A stretch of DNA of 64,000 nt. Origin: Denitrobaculum tricleocarpae. GTDB lineage: Bacteria > Pseudomonadota > Alphaproteobacteria > Kiloniellales > Kiloniellaceae. The stretch is taken from positions 1 to 64,000 of the forward strand of contig NZ_ML660062.1 in assembly GCF_007004665.1 (NCBI RefSeq). Direction: 5' to 3'. The position numbers and the translations under genes were made by a program. The notes beneath the pieces were generated by a model that searched no databases, was not told where the DNA came from, and saw only the letters and a program-made list of their open reading frames with translations. Positions 47,659 to 61,213 of the stretch are shown piece by piece (the first letter of the stretch is position 1; each line of letters begins with the position of its first letter).

Positions 47659-48711
47659 ATGCTCGGCGCGAGCAACAACATCGAGATCAGTCACCGCCGC
47701 ATCACCGCGGAAGTATTGGCCAGGTTGAGGGTCGTTCAAGGACGCTTTGCGCGCGGCGACAGGAATGCCGGGCGGGTGATCCTGAAGGAATGCGATCTCT
47801 CGAACCTGGATTTCTCGTCCTCCTGTTTTGCCGGCGCCCACTTCATCGCCTGTAGCTTCGCGAACGCCAACCTGACCGATGCCGACTTCAGCAGAACAAT
47901 GCTGTTCGGATCCAACTTCGAGCGCGCCAACCTGACCCGCACAAACTTCGAGAGCGCCAATCTCCAGGCGGCCACCTTCGATGAAGCCACCATGGAAGAT
48001 ACGCGTCTCGATCGGGCCGACATTCGCAAAGGCACGCTGATCCACGGCAGCGAGAAGGAAGGCACGGCGAGCTATCAGGAGATCGAAACCTCGTTCCGTG
48101 AGGCCGAGCTGCGCGGCACCAACTTCACAAACGCCTTCCTGCGGAACGCGAACTTCGACGGCGCAAAGCTCGATAACGTCAAGCTGAAGGGAGCCGACCT
48201 GAGAGGGTCGAGTTTTCACGGAGCCGAACTGAAAAATGTCGACGCATCCCAGGCGCTGATCCAGGACGCCGACTTCCGCTCTGCCTCCCTGGAGGGAGTC
48301 GAACTGGGCGAGAGCCTGTCGCTGCTGGCCGCCGCCCCGGCTGCACCGATGGAGAAAGAAAGTCTGGAGACCATCATCGCCGACCACGAACGTTGGGTGG
48401 CATCGGGCGGCAAAGATGGAAAGCGGGCCTCCTTTGCCGAACAAAATCTCTCCGGCCACGACCTGGCCGGACGGAACCTCGCGACGATCTGCTTTAACTA
48501 CGCAAACCTCAGCGGGGCAAATTTCTCCCGAATGGTCCTGGCGGCCTGCAGTTTCCAGTATGCAAATCTGCGCGGCGCGGATCTGACGGGCAGCGATCTG
48601 CGCGGAGCGGATTTCAGCCATGCCGTGATCACCAATGCAAAGCTGGAGAGCTGCATCACTGGAGCGCTGCCGGGCACCGGGTTAAGCACAGTTATTGAGA
48701 GAAACGACTGA
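47659..48711 (+). CDS. Pentapeptide-repeat protein, copy 1
   Basis: 350 residues built mainly of A(D/N)LXX-type pentapeptides that should fold as a right-handed beta-helix. Repeats run from about 45 to 220 (FANANLTDADFSRTMLFGS and so on) and resume from about 265 to 335. They are split by a non-repeat segment near 224-265 that includes HERWVASGGKDGKRASF. No signal peptide or membrane helix. The paralogue at 54412-55506 shares the whole plan and even the GGAGAC ribosome site. The role is unknown. Pentapeptide proteins of other kinds mimic DNA or act as scaffolds. Confidence 0.85.
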   Translation: MLGASNNIEISHRRITAEVLARLRVVQGRFARGDRNAGRVILKECDLSNLDFSSSCFAGAHFIACSFANANLTDADFSRTMLFGSNFERANLTRTNFESANLQAATFDEATMEDTRLDRADIRKGTLIHGSEKEGTASYQEIETSFREAELRGTNFTNAFLRNANFDGAKLDNVKLKGADLRGSSFHGAELKNVDASQALIQDADFRSASLEGVELGESLSLLAAAPAAPMEKESLETIIADHERWVASGGKDGKRASFAEQNLSGHDLAGRNLATICFNYANLSGANFSRMVLAACSFQYANLRGADLTGSDLRGADFSHAVITNAKLESCITGALPGTGLSTVIERND

Positions 48712-50631: not shown

Positions 50632-50733
50632 TTGTTAGAGCTTTGTTTGCATTAATAGGTGTATATATGATGTTGACCCGACGCTGAAAAAGTAAACGCC
50701 GCTGGTCCCCGGCTGCTGACGATACTGGTGCCT

Positions 50734-51234
50734 ATGCTGACCCTTCCCGAGTATGCCCTGGACAAGCGAGTCTTTGGGCCGGTTCCACCCGAAGAAGCGC
50801 AGTTCATCTCGCCATTGGTCAGCGATGCCCTCAGTCATTGGCACAGCCTCAAGGGCGGGCGGCCTTATCCGCTGCGCCGTGACTTCCTGCCCGAGAACGC
50901 GACCCGCTTCTGGCGCTACCTGGCGCTCATGGATGTGCTCAACGACGACTATCGCATCCGGTTTTTCGGCAGCAAGCTGGTTGAGACCTACGGCGAGCTG
51001 ACCGGCCGGAAGATCTCGGAACTCGACCCGGCGATCAGGGACCGCAACCGCCTGATCTTTGACGCCTGCCGGGACAGCCAGCGGCCCGCCTACGCCTACT
51101 GGCCCATGAGCGCGGCGCGGGACAAGCCCTTTCTCGATGTGGAAGGGCTGTGCCTGCCGTTTTCAAAGGACGGCACCAGTCTGGATCTGATCGCGGGGCT
51201 CAACGTGAGCTCCTCGCGCCGGACATTGCGATAG
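50734..51234 (+). CDS. PAS_5 domain protein
   Basis: 166 residues. The PAS_5 family of alphaproteobacteria is recognised by HWHSLKGGRPYPLRRDFLPE, followed by FWRYLALMDVLNDDYRIRFFGSKLVE, which forms the PAS core. No output domain is attached. Members are predicted sensors or signalling adaptors; the ligand is unknown. The start is ATG 50734, with GTG 50728 as an alternative; neither has a strong ribosome site. It ends 6 bp from the convergent end of the PEP-CTERM array. Confidence 0.82.
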   Translation: MLTLPEYALDKRVFGPVPPEEAQFISPLVSDALSHWHSLKGGRPYPLRRDFLPENATRFWRYLALMDVLNDDYRIRFFGSKLVETYGELTGRKISELDPAIRDRNRLIFDACRDSQRPAYAYWPMSAARDKPFLDVEGLCLPFSKDGTSLDLIAGLNVSSSRRTLR

Positions 51235-51240
51235 GCGCGG

Positions 51241-51906
51241 CTATCCCGCCCGATGCCCTCTTGCCCTGCCATGCCGCCGCGCCAGGGCGAAACCCGCCAG
51301 ACCCAGACCGAAGAGCGTCAGCGTGCCCGGCTCCGGAACCGCCGCCATGGCGGGCGCCGCAACCAACAGCAGGTTGTCCACGGCCATTAAGCTCTGAGTG
51401 TTACCTGGGGGAACGCTGAATTGGATCTGCGAAAAAGCCGCGGTGCTGTCGATCACCCCCAAGAACCCGGCGGTATCCCCCAGTGTGTCTATGACATCAA
51501 CGACCAGGCCTAATTCGGGGATGGTCAATTGAAGCGGGCCCAGAAAAGCGAACCCCAGGCCGACTCCCGTCACAGGCTCGGGAAGGGTCCAGATCAGGTT
51601 CAAGGCCCCAGTGCTGGCATTACTGCTTAAGTCGGCTTGAAAGAAACCACTGCGAACAGTGTTTTGACTCGAACTCGGCTGCCCACCGGCCAAGGTTGAA
51701 ACCACGCCGTTGCCGAAAGTGATTGAAGTGCCGTCTGCGATTTCAGTGTCAAATCCCTCGTTCGTAATCGGTGCCGGGCCAGCGGCGGTCACGAAATCAG
51801 AAATGTTAGTGAAGGTAATGGGCGCAGCCTGGGCGCTGCCGACCGACAGGGCGAAGCCGCAGAGGGCCAGGACGAGGCCCGCCGTCAGTGATTTAAGACG
51901 CCGCAT
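51241..51906 (-). CDS. PEP-CTERM secreted protein, array copy 4 (last)
   Basis: 221 residues. A Sec signal peptide ends near residue 27 (SAQA). The mature part is a beta-rich domain, shared loosely with copies 1-3 (ITFGNGVVSTLAGG, FSQIQFSV). The C-terminus is a PEP-CTERM sorting signal: VPEPGTLTLFGLGLAGFAL and a basic tail. Exosortase is expected to cleave there and anchor the protein to the envelope or release it into the matrix; no exosortase gene is in the window. This copy is the most diverged and ends RGHRAG instead of QQNAAS. Its start overlaps copy 3 by 14 bp. Confidence 0.88.
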   Translation of the reverse strand: MRRLKSLTAGLVLALCGFALSVGSAQAAPITFTNISDFVTAAGPAPITNEGFDTEIADGTSITFGNGVVSTLAGGQPSSSQNTVRSGFFQADLSSNASTGALNLIWTLPEPVTGVGLGFAFLGPLQLTIPELGLVVDVIDTLGDTAGFLGVIDSTAAFSQIQFSVPPGNTQSLMAVDNLLLVAAPAMAAVPEPGTLTLFGLGLAGFALARRHGRARGHRAG

Positions 51907-52567
51907 TCTGCTGCCCCCGTGTCTTGCCGTGCCGCCGCGCCAGGGCGAAACCCGCCAGACCGAGACCGAAGAGCGCCAGCGTGCCCGGCTCCGGAACTGC
52001 CGCCATAGAGGGCGCCGCTGCGAAGCGCAGGTTATCGATTGAGAACCTGCCCAAACCAGTGCCCTGAATGCTGAACTGGATCTGGGTAAAGGGCGTCTGG
52101 CTGTTGATCAGACCGAATGCACCACTCGCGGCCCCCATCACTGTGTTGATATCGAAGAAGACATCCGACCCGGGGATGGTCACGTCGATGAGGCTGGTAG
52201 ACCCAAAATCCGCGATGAAACCAATTGCCGGGACGGGAAAGGTCCAGGTCAGGGTCAAGGGCGCACCGCCGCCAGAGCCGTCCAGGCTCCCACGAAAGAG
52301 ACCGTTAAGAACTGCGTTATCTAACACAACAGTCCCCAAGTTCCCGCCTGCCGCCGTTGAGACCACGCCGCTGTCGAAGGTTATTTCGACCGCGCCTGCG
52401 ATGTTATTATTGAAGGTTTCAGTGGTTACCGGCGCGGCGCCGATGGCGCCATTGAAGTCATTCAGGCTGGTCACCGTTATGGGCGCTGCCTGGGCGCTTC
52501 CGACCGACAGGGCGAAGCCGCAGAGAGCCAGCAAAAGGCCAGCCGTCAGTGATTTAAGATGCCGCAT
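51893..52567 (-). CDS. PEP-CTERM secreted protein, array copy 3
   Basis: 224 residues. The signal peptide (MRHLKSLTAGLLLALCG start) is nearly that of copy 4, whereas the mature domain resembles copy 1 (SLIDVTIPGS, QTPFTQIQFSIQ). The C-terminal VPEPGTLALFGLGLAGFAL, then an Arg/His/Gly tail ending QQNAAS, is the sorting signal. An open frame extends 56 codons upstream into copy 2, but the signal peptide fixes the start at 52567. It overlaps copies 2 and 4 by 14 bp each. Confidence 0.9.
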   Translation of the reverse strand: MRHLKSLTAGLLLALCGFALSVGSAQAAPITVTSLNDFNGAIGAAPVTTETFNNNIAGAVEITFDSGVVSTAAGGNLGTVVLDNAVLNGLFRGSLDGSGGGAPLTLTWTFPVPAIGFIADFGSTSLIDVTIPGSDVFFDINTVMGAASGAFGLINSQTPFTQIQFSIQGTGLGRFSIDNLRFAAAPSMAAVPEPGTLALFGLGLAGFALARRHGKTRGQQNAAS

Positions 52568-53216
52568 TCTGCTGCCCCCGTGTCTTGCCGTGCCGCCGCG
52601 CGAGGGCGAAACCCGCCAGACCGAGACCGAAGAGCGCCAGCGTGCCCGGCTCCGGAACCGCCGCGATGGAGGGCGCCGCTGCGAAGCGCAAATTGTCGAT
52701 GTCGAAGCTGTCACCACCATTACTATTCTGAACACTGAACTGGATCCGCCTGAAGGGCGTCAGGCTGTCGATCAGACCAAATGCGCCACTCCCGGCCCCT
52801 ATCTCTGTGAAGATATCGAAGACCTCACCAGAACCAAGTATGGTCACCTCGAGGGCGCTGGTACGCCCAAAATCCGCGATGAAACCAATGACCGGGACGG
52901 GAAAGGTCCAGGTCAGGGTCCGGGGCGCGAAGATGCCATTGGGGTCCAAGCCCCCTCTGAAGAGACCGTTAGAAACTCCGTTATCACCAAACCCGCCTGC
53001 CGCCGTTGAGACCACGCCGCTGTCGAAGGTGATTTCGACCGCGCCTGGGATGTTATTACTGAAGGTTTCAGTGGTTACCGGCGCGGCGCCGACGGCACTG
53101 TTGAAGTCATTCAGGCTAGTCACGGGCATGGGCGCCGCCTGGGCGCCACCCAGGGTCGGGCCGGTCATCCCCAAGGCCAGAACCAAGCCCGCTGCGTATG
53201 ATTTAAGACGCCGCAT
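52554..53216 (-). CDS. PEP-CTERM secreted protein, array copy 2
   Basis: 220 residues. The signal peptide (MRRLKSYAAGLVLALGM start) matches copy 1; the mature domain is a diverged version (SALEVTILGS, LTPFRRIQFSVQ). The C-terminus VPEPGTLALFGLGLAGFAL and QQNAAS end match copies 1 and 3. The start at 53216 is set by the signal peptide and by the 14-bp overlap with copy 1 (53203-53216). Confidence 0.9.
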   Translation of the reverse strand: MRRLKSYAAGLVLALGMTGPTLGGAQAAPMPVTSLNDFNSAVGAAPVTTETFSNNIPGAVEITFDSGVVSTAAGGFGDNGVSNGLFRGGLDPNGIFAPRTLTWTFPVPVIGFIADFGRTSALEVTILGSGEVFDIFTEIGAGSGAFGLIDSLTPFRRIQFSVQNSNGGDSFDIDNLRFAAAPSIAAVPEPGTLALFGLGLAGFALARRHGKTRGQQNAAS

Positions 53217-53880
53217 TCTGCTGCCCCCGCACCCTGCCATTCCGCCGCGCCAGGGCGAAACCCGCCAGACCGAGACCGAAGAGCGCCAGCGTGCCCGGCT
53301 CCGGAACTGTCACCACAGAGGGTGCCGCTGCGAAGCGCAAATTGTCGACAGAGAAAATCTCAATAAAAGAGCTATTCTGAATGCTGAACTGGATCTGGGT
53401 AAAGGGCGTCTGGCTATCGATCAGACCGAATGAACCATTCGCGGCCCCTATCACTGTGAAGATATCGAAGATCTCACCCGAACCGGGTATGGTTACGTCG
53501 ATGAGGCTGTTAGACCCAAAATCCGCGATGAAACCGATCACCGGGACGGGAAAGGTCCAGGTCAGGGTCAAGGGCGCGGAGCTGCCATCGCCGTCCAGGG
53601 CCCCACGAAAGAGACCGTTAAAAACTGCGTTATCAGACCCAACCACCCCCGAAAGCCCGCCTGCCGCTGTTGAGGCCACGCCGCTGTCGAAGGTGATTTC
53701 GACCCCGCCCGTGATGCGATTGCCAAAGGTCTCAGTGGTCACCGGCGCGGCGCCGATGGCGCTGTTGAAGTCGTTCAAGCTGGTTACCGTTATGGGCGCC
53801 GCCTGGCTGCCACCCAGGGTTAGCCCGCTCATCCCAAGGGCCAGAACCAGGCCCGCTGCGTATGATTTAAATCCCTTCAT
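53203..53880 (-). CDS. PEP-CTERM secreted protein, array copy 1 (first transcribed)
   Basis: 225 residues. Signal peptide to about residue 27, then a beta-rich domain (VTTETF, VEITFDSGVASTAAGG, TLTWTFPVPVIGFIADFG) and the sorting signal VPEPGTLALFGLGLAGFAL plus basic tail. The start ATG 53880 has GAGGGG upstream; a 21-codon upstream extension lacks a signal. Its initial codons (MKGFKS) differ from the MR(R/H)LKS starts of copies 2-4, which are built into the overlap with the previous gene. A 16-bp tandem repeat lies about 70 bp upstream. Confidence 0.9.
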   Translation of the reverse strand: MKGFKSYAAGLVLALGMSGLTLGGSQAAPITVTSLNDFNSAIGAAPVTTETFGNRITGGVEITFDSGVASTAAGGLSGVVGSDNAVFNGLFRGALDGDGSSAPLTLTWTFPVPVIGFIADFGSNSLIDVTIPGSGEIFDIFTVIGAANGSFGLIDSQTPFTQIQFSIQNSSFIEIFSVDNLRFAAAPSVVTVPEPGTLALFGLGLAGFALARRNGRVRGQQNAAS

Positions 53881-54411
53881 TGAGTTCCCCTCGCCGCCGC
53901 AGCTTTCCGGTCTCTCTTGCGACAAGATTTCCGTGCTGGGCATTTATCATGGTTAAATTGGATCAAGGTTAGATTGGATCAAAGCCCGCCGGGAACTGAA
54001 AAAGCGCCGAAGCTCCCGCGAGCCTTAGATTGCGCGAGGGATCACATCAGAGTGACCCGGGGAAGTGAAGGGGGCGGGCGCAGTTTGTCCCAAATCTGCG
54101 CAATTTTGTCCAATATGGAACAGTGTCCGGGCGAAAGAGGCTGATCCAAGGGTGGAGGTGCCCCTCCGGACAGCCTGAAACGGGGCTCTGGCCTCAAACA
54201 AAGCGCGCAGGTCTGCGCCGCAGCCCGAAAAGCCTCTACAATTGTAGGCATACTCAACGTTTTACAAACACTTAGGGCTGATACTTCCGGGTTGGAGCTG
54301 CCTCTTCCAGGCAGCGTACGCCCCTATCTGCGCCTTGATCGCCGCCGGCCCGCGCCAAAAGCCGGCAGGACGGGTTGATAAGGGTGGATCGGCAACCTCC
54401 GTGGAGACGGC
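53881..54411. other. Divergent intergenic region between the PEP-CTERM array and pentapeptide copy 2
   Basis: 531 bp. It holds a 16-bp tandem direct repeat (53951-53982) on the PEP-CTERM side. The rest, including AT-rich patches near 54100-54120 and 54235-54270, may hold promoters, but none was clear. No additional gene is supported. Confidence 0.4.
53951..53982. repeat. Two tandem 16-bp direct repeats upstream of the PEP-CTERM array
   Basis: ggttaaattggatcaa (53951-53966) is followed directly by ggttagattggatcaa (53967-53982); 15 of 16 bases agree. On the minus strand, the coding strand of the array, they lie about 70-100 bp before the first start. They could be paired sites for an activator or repressor. 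Confidence 0.8.
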
Positions 54412-55506
54412 ATGCTCAAAGAGAGCAACAACATCATCATCGTCGACCGCCGGATCACCACGGAAGCCCTGGAAAAGCTGATGGTGGTGCAGCGCGGCTT
54501 CGCCCGGGGCCGCAAGGCCGCGCGGCGGGTGATCCTGAAAAAGTGCGATCTGGCACACCTGGACCTCTCCTCGGCCTGTTTCGCGGGCGCCCACTTCATC
54601 GCCTGCGACTTCTCCAGCGCCAGCCTGCGCAATGCCGACTTCAGCCGCACCGTGCTGTTCGGCTCGAGCTTCGAGAACAGCGATCTGACCAGGACGAATT
54701 TCGAGATCGCGAACCTGCAGGCGGCGATCTTCGACAATGCCACCCTGCACGGCACGCGCCTGACCCGGGCGGACATTCGCAAGGGCACGCTGATCCACGG
54801 CCAGGAGCGCAACGGCACGGCGGTCTACCGGGAAATCGAAACCTCGTTCCGGGAAGCGGACCTGATCGGGGCCGATTTCGAGGATGCCTCGTTGCGCAAC
54901 GTCAATTTCTCCAGCGCCCGGATCGATGACGTGAACCTAAAGGGCGCGGATCTGACCGGGTCGCGCTTTCACGGTGCGCAGATCCGCAACCTGGATGTCT
55001 CGCAGGCCCTGGTACAGAACGCGGATTTCCGCGCGGCCTCCTTCGAGAACGTCACTCTGGGGGACAGTGCGCTGGTTCTGGCCGCGGCGGCCCAGATGAC
55101 TCCCACCAGCCGGCGGGACCTGGACGCCATTATTCAATGGCACGAGACCTGGGTGGCGTCCGACGGCCGGGAGGGCACCCGCGCCTGCTTCGACGAGCAG
55201 AACCTCTCGGGCCACGACCTGGCCGGCCATAACCTGGCCACGGTGTCCTTCGATTACGCGAATCTCAGCGGCGTGCGCTTTTCCAACATGGTGCTGGCCG
55301 CCTGCAGCTTTCAGCACGCGAACCTGCGCGGCGCCGATCTGAGCGGCAGCGACCTGCGCGGCGCGGACCTCAGCAGCGCCGTGCTCACCGGCGCGAACCT
55401 GGAGGGCTGCGACGTCGGCGAACTGCCGGAAACCGGGCTGGCCACGATTTTCCCCAGCAGCCGCAGCGAGCGCGCCGGCGCGCAGCAGCTCAGGCGCACG
55501 GGCTGA
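54412..55506 (+). CDS. Pentapeptide-repeat protein, copy 2
   Basis: 364 residues, a full-length paralogue of the protein at 47659-48711. It starts MLKESNNIIIVDRRITTEAL (copy 1: MLGASNNIEISHRRITAEVL) and has the same two beta-helix blocks split by the HETWVASDGREGTRACF segment. A Ser/Arg-rich tail of about 20 residues is extra. Both are preceded by GGAGAC six bases before the ATG. The two genes face the same way 5.7 kb apart. The function is unknown. Confidence 0.85.
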   Translation: MLKESNNIIIVDRRITTEALEKLMVVQRGFARGRKAARRVILKKCDLAHLDLSSACFAGAHFIACDFSSASLRNADFSRTVLFGSSFENSDLTRTNFEIANLQAAIFDNATLHGTRLTRADIRKGTLIHGQERNGTAVYREIETSFREADLIGADFEDASLRNVNFSSARIDDVNLKGADLTGSRFHGAQIRNLDVSQALVQNADFRAASFENVTLGDSALVLAAAAQMTPTSRRDLDAIIQWHETWVASDGREGTRACFDEQNLSGHDLAGHNLATVSFDYANLSGVRFSNMVLAACSFQHANLRGADLSGSDLRGADLSSAVLTGANLEGCDVGELPETGLATIFPSSRSERAGAQQLRRTG

Positions 55507-59402: not shown

Positions 59403-59834
59403 TCATTTGCAGTATTTGCAGTTCGGGCACTTCAACAATCTGCGATGCTCTGGGCGCTGGTAAATATGTCCTCTAGGGTTATTTACAATTCTTGGATTTC
59501 GAAAATCATCGTGAAGATTAGTGTCTCTCGAAAAAAGCACTCTAGCGCCTGACACCAACGCAAGCGCAAGTATATGTTGGTCATCAGATTTTACGCCATC
59601 GGGAAGTGTATTTTTTTTGTTTTCCACCAAATCATCATTCACTTCTCTTAATCTTCCAGATTTCAAGAGTTGAATGTATAAACCTCTAAATTTGCACCTT
59701 AACATTTCCTTCTTATGATCATGTCCAGAAACACATCTTATTGTGTCTCTTTGTAGCGCCTCGATTATCGGCTTCGCTGCTTCGGAAGGCCTGATGCACT
59801 CATCTGCTACATTCGCATCAATAATCAGACACAT
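59403..59834 (-). CDS. PIN-domain putative nuclease paired with an ATPase
   Basis: 143 residues. A PIN-like metal site is suggested by IIDANVADECI (Asp 6, Asp 11, Glu 12), SDDQHILALAL (Asp 84, Asp 85) and FSRDTNLHDDF (Asp 104). The pattern matches PIN RNases and toxins. The end carries CPNCKYC, a possible zinc-binding cluster. The gene starts 2 bp after the stop of the ATPase gene, so they are co-translated. Both are clearly AT-rich relative to the window, suggesting transfer. Target and function are unknown; an abortive-infection effector is a reasonable guess. Confidence 0.7.
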   Translation of the reverse strand: MCLIIDANVADECIRPSEAAKPIIEALQRDTIRCVSGHDHKKEMLRCKFRGLYIQLLKSGRLREVNDDLVENKKNTLPDGVKSDDQHILALALVSGARVLFSRDTNLHDDFRNPRIVNNPRGHIYQRPEHRRLLKCPNCKYCK

Positions 59835-59836
59835 AT

Positions 59837-61213
59837 TTAAATTTCCAAGCCCAAAGATCGCATTTCCTCGTCAAGAAAAAACTGTCTATATCCTTTTGGG
59901 GCATTCACCAAATTTCCACTACTATCGATCGATATTTCATGAATAATTACATCGTGGCCAATTCGTTCAAAATACAGAATTCCAACGTCTTTCGGTGACA
60001 ATACAACACCCTCCCTCACTTCCATTCTTATTCTGTCCAGCAAATGATCACTATGAGTTTCAATAAAAATACTGTGCCTTCTCGACTTAGCCATGTGTGA
60101 GAAGAAGCTACCTAATTCTGCCTGTGCTTTAGGATGTAAATGGACTTCAGGTTGCTGAAACAAAAATAACGTTTTTCGATTTGCTCTCAGTATATCGGTC
60201 AGAATGGGCAACGCTTGGCTAACACCGTAGCCCACATCTACGAGATTGGACGCACGTTTCTCCATTTTTACGATGATTTGAAATGGCCCACCTGTGGAAG
60301 CACCAACTTTCTTGACAACGACATCTTGAAACAAACCTGAAGCACGCCCAAACTCGATAAGGCTTTTTCTTATTCGCAGCCATTTGTCAGCATCAAAATA
60401 GTTTAGCTGAGCAAGCACGAAAGGCATGTGGCCGCCATCTGGCGTTTGAGAGATATCCGAAGGATTATAAGTTCTTTCGGGCCTAGAACGAACAGGAGCA
60501 GAGGAATAAACCCCCGACGGCAACAATCTAAGAGCACTTCTATACATACGACCAAGAACTGACATCTCGGATCGAAGCGCTCTTGCATGCCCTTGCGAAG
60601 ACATCACGTCTTCATCGCTCAAGCTCTCAATCTCGTCATACAAAATATTTCTAAGAAAAAACTCTATTATAGACAAATCTAGGTTCCCATAATCTGACGA
60701 CAAAATTGGAAACTCAGGCTCAAAGTCGACAATTTTAGCTGAAGGCAAATTCACCCTAAAATTTGTTCGCTCCTCTGACCGCAATTCAAATCCGTAAGAC
60801 CCAGCGCTAAAAGACACTTCTCGCAAGTGCGGTTGAGATTTTTTATCTGAAAATTCAATAAATAGCTTAAATGGAATCTTCCTGTTTTCTCCATCCTCCT
60901 TGCCAAACAAGTCCGCCTCAACACCTCTACTCCTACTAGCCACTAAAACATCTTCAACTTCAAAAGAAAACGAATCTGCTCTACCGAATCTCCCACCTCT
61001 GTAGTGCGCAATATTTTCGTAGGCCCCCAAGTGGAAAGGCTCTTTATTGAAAGATGCTTTTGATTTTCGATCAAAGAGGTCAAATATAAATCGGGTCGCC
61101 GCCAAAAAGGATGTTTTGCCAGCGCTGTTTTCACCCACAAGCAGGTTAATTGGGCGAACCTCGACAACCTGCTGCTCATGAAAACACCGGAAGTCTGAAA
61201 TTTTAATTTGCAA
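59837..61213 (-). CDS. DUF3696/OLD-like ABC-type ATPase paired with a PIN protein
   Basis: 458 residues. N-terminus IKISDFRCFHEQ, Walker A GENSAGKTS (27-35), a long insertion, then the DUF3696 signature region VDVGYGVSQALPILTDIL, Walker B-like FQQPEVHLHPKAQAEL, and the switch IFIETHSDHLLDRIR. No TOPRIM nuclease domain follows, unlike true OLD proteins. The partner PIN gene may be the effector. TTG 61213 is the start, with GAGGA (complement of 61220-61224) six bases upstream. It is AT-rich with different codon use from flanking genes. A transferred defence module is inferred. Confidence 0.75.
   Translation of the reverse strand: MQIKISDFRCFHEQQVVEVRPINLLVGENSAGKTSFLAATRFIFDLFDRKSKASFNKEPFHLGAYENIAHYRGGRFGRADSFSFEVEDVLVASRSRGVEADLFGKEDGENRKIPFKLFIEFSDKKSQPHLREVSFSAGSYGFELRSEERTNFRVNLPSAKIVDFEPEFPILSSDYGNLDLSIIEFFLRNILYDEIESLSDEDVMSSQGHARALRSEMSVLGRMYRSALRLLPSGVYSSAPVRSRPERTYNPSDISQTPDGGHMPFVLAQLNYFDADKWLRIRKSLIEFGRASGLFQDVVVKKVGASTGGPFQIIVKMEKRASNLVDVGYGVSQALPILTDILRANRKTLFLFQQPEVHLHPKAQAELGSFFSHMAKSRRHSIFIETHSDHLLDRIRMEVREGVVLSPKDVGILYFERIGHDVIIHEISIDSSGNLVNAPKGYRQFFLDEEMRSLGLEI

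Follow-up and report, generated by a model that had tools for sequence, protein, structure and literature searches.

The window analysed here, a 64,000-nucleotide stretch of the Denitrobaculum tricleocarpae genome (G000), carries on its minus strand, from 53880 to 51241, four open reading frames for PEP-CTERM proteins that lie head to tail and are joined by three overlaps of 14 nt. The first gene, g1 (53203..53880, 225 aa, PEP-CTERM motif at 53242-53307), has a Shine-Dalgarno (SD)-like GAGGGG ahead of its ATG and is followed on the same strand by g2 (52554..53216, 220 aa, motif at 52590-52658), g3 (51893..52567, 224 aa, motif at 51929-51997) and g4 (51241..51906, 221 aa, motif at 51271-51339). 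Start-to-start distances along the array are 664, 649 and 661 bp, and the four tandem frames, their 14-nt overlaps and the unit lengths of 649-664 bp described in the first-pass annotation were found to be exact.

The units differ from one another by 17-38% at the DNA level, every indel among them preserves the reading frame, and the contig that contains the array is 192 kb long. An assembly collapse or expansion, which the first-pass annotation had raised, was rejected because the units have diverged to this degree, the array is placed mid-contig, and the independent assembly of the sister species (G002) has this joint too, at the corresponding locus. A single protein produced by frameshift read-through was considered unlikely, since the signal peptide and the sorting tail are intact in every one of the four frames. 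Judged from the sequence, all four frames look translated, because the indels keep the frame and dN/dS among the bodies of g1-g3 is 0.50-0.66, with the g2-g3 value (0.66) weakly below 1; dS and dN were obtained throughout with our own script for the Nei-Gojobori method, a simple counting method.

All four proteins scored above the cut-offs of both PF07589 (32-34 bits vs 20.7) and TIGR02595 (23-28 bits vs 16), which confirmed their PEP-CTERM identity. Signal peptides with a basic n-region, a hydrophobic core and an AQA/AP or SQA/AP site were recognized by eye in all four. The genome contains 36 PEP-CTERM ORFs, and the only exosortase found in it is XrtA (TIGR03109, 304.7 bits vs the cut-off of 208), located within a complete XrtA/exopolysaccharide (EPS) cluster that includes an XrtA-associated FemAB protein, a deacetylase, an ATPase, a kinase and glycosyltransferases. 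The array resembles the described PEP-CTERM/exosortase A (XrtA) systems (PMC1569441) in that its proteins have the same signal peptide, VPEP motif, hydrophobic helix and basic tail, and in that XrtA and an EPS cluster are likewise present in the genome. The products would be exported by means of a Sec-type signal peptide, processed by exosortase A at the PEP-CTERM tail and, presumably through binding to EPS, retained within the exopolysaccharide layer or at its surface.

The protein bodies of the array matched no named family, and no close relative was detected by a body-type profile search of 385 genomes of the class or by a sequence search of the Protein Data Bank. Among the genomes searched, close relatives of the bodies occurred only in this genus and in one sister-genus genome, and a search for a wider family in the genome_contigs collection yielded one relative. 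AlphaFold2 modelled the body as a beta-sandwich, with pLDDT >=90 over 128 residues. The best Foldseek matches to this model include carbohydrate-binding modules of families 29, 32 and 86, all of them weak (E ~1e-3 to 1e-2, TM ~0.5 at best), and binding of exopolysaccharide by the modelled body is a reasonable guess, not a result.

The overlap sequence of all three joints is ATGCGGCRTCTTAA, read on the minus strand as ATGCGGCGTCTTAA between g1 and g2 (53203..53216), ATGCGGCATCTTAA between g2 and g3 (52554..52567) and ATGCGGCGTCTTAA between g3 and g4 (51893..51906). At each joint the downstream ATG begins at the second base of an Asn codon (AAT) of the upstream gene, one base on from its frame. 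The upstream TAA, which the first-pass annotation had placed inside the fifth codon of the next gene, in fact straddles codons 4 and 5 (CTT AAA). An extended joint of 25 nt, CAGCAGAATGCGGCRTCTTAAATCA, has three perfect matches in the window and none in the shuffled sequences (0.00 expected); among 60 related genomes and this one, it was found three times here, once in G002 and nowhere else. As copies of one ancestral joint, the three amount to a single coincidence. The identical joint stands at this locus in the sister species too, so it goes back to one event, inherited by both and older than the separation of G000 and G002.

The array genes and the dispersed singletons of the genus share a conserved Ser, preceded by Lys or Arg, five codons downstream of the start codon (M-x-x-x-K/R-S). 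Since the distance from the ATG to this K/R-S is equal in the array and in the genus singletons, the downstream ATG looks ancestral. The creation of a new start codon by the joint was set aside, as the shared spacing would then be a coincidence. The leader of the single gene found in another congener (G003), AAGAAGAATG, resembles the AGCAGAATG of the joint, which fits an original downstream start with an upstream tail fused before it. The 14-nt overlap is probably an inherited fusion joint, in which the tail of the upstream gene would have been fused a few bases 5' of the original start codon of the next gene. The upstream frame would then stay open until the first stop that it meets out of frame with the following gene, the TAA across that gene's codons 4-5, so that the last residues of the upstream protein (NAAS) would be read from the start of that gene, and the downstream gene would have lost its promoter and gained an SD-like GGGGG within the upstream tail. 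A structure shared by the joints was not found by RNA folding.

The SD-like GGGGG sites lie on the minus strand 7 nt ahead of the starts of g2 (53224..53228), g3 (52575..52579) and g4 (51914..51918), and each has a computed duplex energy of -8.6 kcal/mol with the general anti-SD CACCUCCU, which is not one taken from this genome. For about 19% of the minus-strand ATGs in the window, the upstream SD energy is at least as favourable as -6 kcal/mol. The gene s4 of the sister species has AAGGGAG where the array genes have GGGGG. Like the termination-reinitiation pairs described by Huber et al. 2019 and 2023 (PMC6728339, PMC10666635), the array genes are co-directional, with each start inside the end of the upstream gene; in contrast to those pairs, the overlap is 14 nt, where 4 or 1 nt is common, and the partners are paralogues. 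Overlap as such permits termination-reinitiation. In one study cited in a review, coupling fell steadily as the overlap grew from 4 to 25 nt (PMC12548453), and by analogy an overlap of 14 nt would be less favourable for reinitiation than one of 4 nt. The "tight translational coupling" proposed at first pass is therefore not warranted, given this drop in coupling and the SD-like GGGGG that each internal start has of its own. We estimate that g2-g4 combine moderate coupling with SD-led initiation; their translation would probably start partly from the SD-like sites and partly by termination-reinitiation.

Upstream of g1, at 54084..54111 on the minus strand, lies a direct repeat, GGACAAA..GGACAAA with 21-bp spacing, which is the sole copy in the window and is a putative shared promoter or regulator element. 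Its consensus is GGACAAANTTGCNCN7GGACAAA, often with a CTCTTC-like stretch ~10-20 bp after it, and it also occurs ahead of the genes at the corresponding loci of G002 and G003 and ahead of many other PEP-CTERM genes of the genus. Among sites with <=1 mismatch in the four congeneric genomes G000-G003, 25 of 32 lie 530-870 bp 5' of a same-strand PEP-CTERM motif, a placement with a chance of ~0.5% per site. The repeat was absent from four sister-genus genomes. The element looks like one that serves a PEP-CTERM regulon as its promoter or activator site. That the element stands before g1 only, with none between the array units, while each gene of a tandem pair at C7:212-213 kb has one, supports g1-g4 being a single operon. 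The array would accordingly be transcribed from one regulated promoter region ~200-230 bp 5' of g1. Many proteobacterial PEP-CTERM genes have a sigma-54 promoter and a PrsR-type motif ahead of them; inspection by eye of the region before g1 revealed no -24/-12 pair. A sigma-70 promoter scan found no site, and terminator-like sites were near the chance level. According to Haft et al. 2006, more than 65% of PEP-CTERM genes are single-gene operons with long upstream regions (PMC1569441). The array departs from that pattern, with four genes in one overlapping series, and its upstream GGACAAA element differs from the sigma-54 pair of that study.

Comparison of copy number and junctions in close relatives, as the first-pass annotation had proposed, revealed a joint kept at a fixed locus with variable copy number. 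The sister species G002 has two genes, s1 and s4, at the syntenic locus, with the same 14-nt overlap, the identical 25-nt joint and the same neighbours as here, a pentapeptide-repeat gene and a PAS_5 gene. In G003 these two neighbours enclose a single gene, which is of the g4 type. In G001 the pentapeptide gene is present, and a close homologue of g1 and the PAS_5 orthologue are absent. The array copy number across the four congeners is thus 4 in G000, 2 in G002, 1 in G003 and 0 in G001.

Several features of the surrounding region were also observed. Two homologous pentapeptide-repeat proteins flank it, at window positions 47659-48711 and 54412-55506; their genes adjoin one another in G001, and the second-best match in G003 lies on a different contig, which indicates that the block between the two was rearranged. 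The PAS_5 gene (50728-51234) has a dS of 0.47 to its G002 orthologue, compared with 0.07-0.15 for its neighbours, and may possibly have been exchanged itself. Farther away, at 59403-61213 on the minus strand, an AAA-type ATPase gene is followed 2 bp on by a small PIN-like gene, a pair that by eye resembles defence-type systems.

Tandem PEP-CTERM clusters are common in the genus, with further examples in G000 C12 (L094), G003 C8 (L088), G002 C4 and C14 (L089, L090) and G001 C12 (L092). Like the array, these consist of 2-4 genes head to tail, and their copy number varies among congeners. They differ from it in that the eight inspected, with gene starts picked by a simple rule, mostly have gaps of 7-430 bp and include one 8-nt overlap, in G003 C8 (L088), and in that several have GGACAAA elements of their own or unlike bodies. 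A description of overlapping PEP-CTERM arrays was not found in the open-access papers searched. The array of overlap-joined paralogues is real and inherited; it represents an uncommon variant of a common arrangement rather than a new type of system.

The ages of the units were compared with those of the species. Between G000 and G002, dS is 0.07 for accA and 0.15 for the pentapeptide gene, both of which flank the locus, and 0.08 for the bodies of g4 and s4; between G000 and G003 it is 0.50-0.65. Among the bodies of g1, g2 and g3, dS is 0.27-0.34, compared with 0.76-0.90 between s1 and g1-g3 and ~1.0 between g4 and g1-g3. If the clock holds, the g1-g3 split would be older than the split of G000 and G002 and younger than that of G003. 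In the body protein tree, g4, s4 and the G003 gene form one clade with full support, and g4, whose orthologues are the other two, belongs to an older lineage. A second group contains g1-g3, s1 and dispersed paralogues, with no resolution of their internal order; s1 and a gene of G016 have long branches.

Identity between genes changes abruptly along their length. It falls from 96% over the first 67 nt to 67% between s1 and g1, and from 91% over 89 nt to 57% between g3 and g4, and it rises from 76% at the start to 97% between the orthologues g4 and s4 (0/2000 permutations for each); the low identity at the start of the last pair is explained by the resemblance of the signal-peptide end of g4 to that of g3. 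At the C-terminal end, identity between unlike bodies climbs from ~57% to 85%, beyond all 2000 permutations. Among the controls, dispersed orthologues had no step (556/2000 permutations), the non-array pair u4-g1 had a weaker one (21/2000), which suggests that tail similarity is in part constraint, and C7_G000-g1 dropped abruptly at the very end (0/2000), where the tails are unrelated. By these comparisons, the array is a mosaic of at least two paralogue lineages, in which recombination has exchanged the signal-peptide and C-terminal ends. The separation of g1-g3 predates that of the sister species, so the array has both gained and lost copies, and loss in the sister species is as likely as recent gain. 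The simplest history starts from a longer array in the ancestor, from which each of the two species lost different copies; alternatively, the bodies may have evolved at an accelerated rate or been imported. Homologous recombination between the near-identical ends would have altered the copy number and swapped ends among the units.

Taken together, we consider it likely that the four PEP-CTERM paralogues form one operon, with an inherited fusion joint and recombined ends, that encodes XrtA-sorted matrix proteins. Recent amplification of a single unit in tandem through unequal crossover, with termination-reinitiation coupling the genes tightly to fix the stoichiometry, would explain the identical joints, the nearly equal unit lengths and the difference in copy number between species, and subunits of heteromeric complexes are enriched among gene pairs with short overlaps (PMC10666635). 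This account is rather unlikely, because g4 forms a separate clade, the dS of the g1-g3 bodies exceeds that of the species split, coupling drops with overlaps of >4 nt (PMC12548453), and there is no sign of a complex among the products. The "repeated crossover of one unit" suggested at first pass holds only in part: copy number changed at a fixed locus with the overlap intact, and recombination among units occurred, but with g4 in its own clade and a body dS of ~1.0 to g1-g3, it was not one unit that was repeated.

The shared ends around unlike bodies, and a body of s1 that is orthologous to none of g1-g3 despite the near-identity of its first 67 nt to g1, could also reflect a diversity-generating cassette, in which identical ends serve as recombination handles and bodies are swapped within a fixed frame of expression and sorting to give lineage-specific surface repertoires. 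We regard this as improbable, since the joint is present in two species only, ordinary gene conversion with differential loss gives the same pattern, and no donor locus was found in the genome. Slightly more doubtful still is a body-swapping cassette in which the promoter, joints and ends stay fixed while carbohydrate-binding bodies change, and in which reinitiation grades the output down the operon. That the overlaps are neutral leftovers, with g1 and perhaps one other gene expressed and the remainder decaying, is very improbable: the overlap is without a proven role and dN/dS is raised among the paralogues relative to the orthologues, but the four frames are intact, indels are in-frame only, signal peptides and sorting tails are preserved, and dN/dS between g4 and s4 is 0.18.

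PEP-CTERM proteins are numerous, with dozens in a genome, and poorly understood. The locus, with its 4, 2, 1 and 0 copies in close relatives, its datable shared joint and its recombined ends, is a small natural experiment on how such a repertoire grows, and it bears on whether the amounts of sorted matrix proteins relative to one another depend on the overlap. Should the body-swapping arrangement prove true, recombination would renew the matrix proteins while their expression and sorting stay intact.
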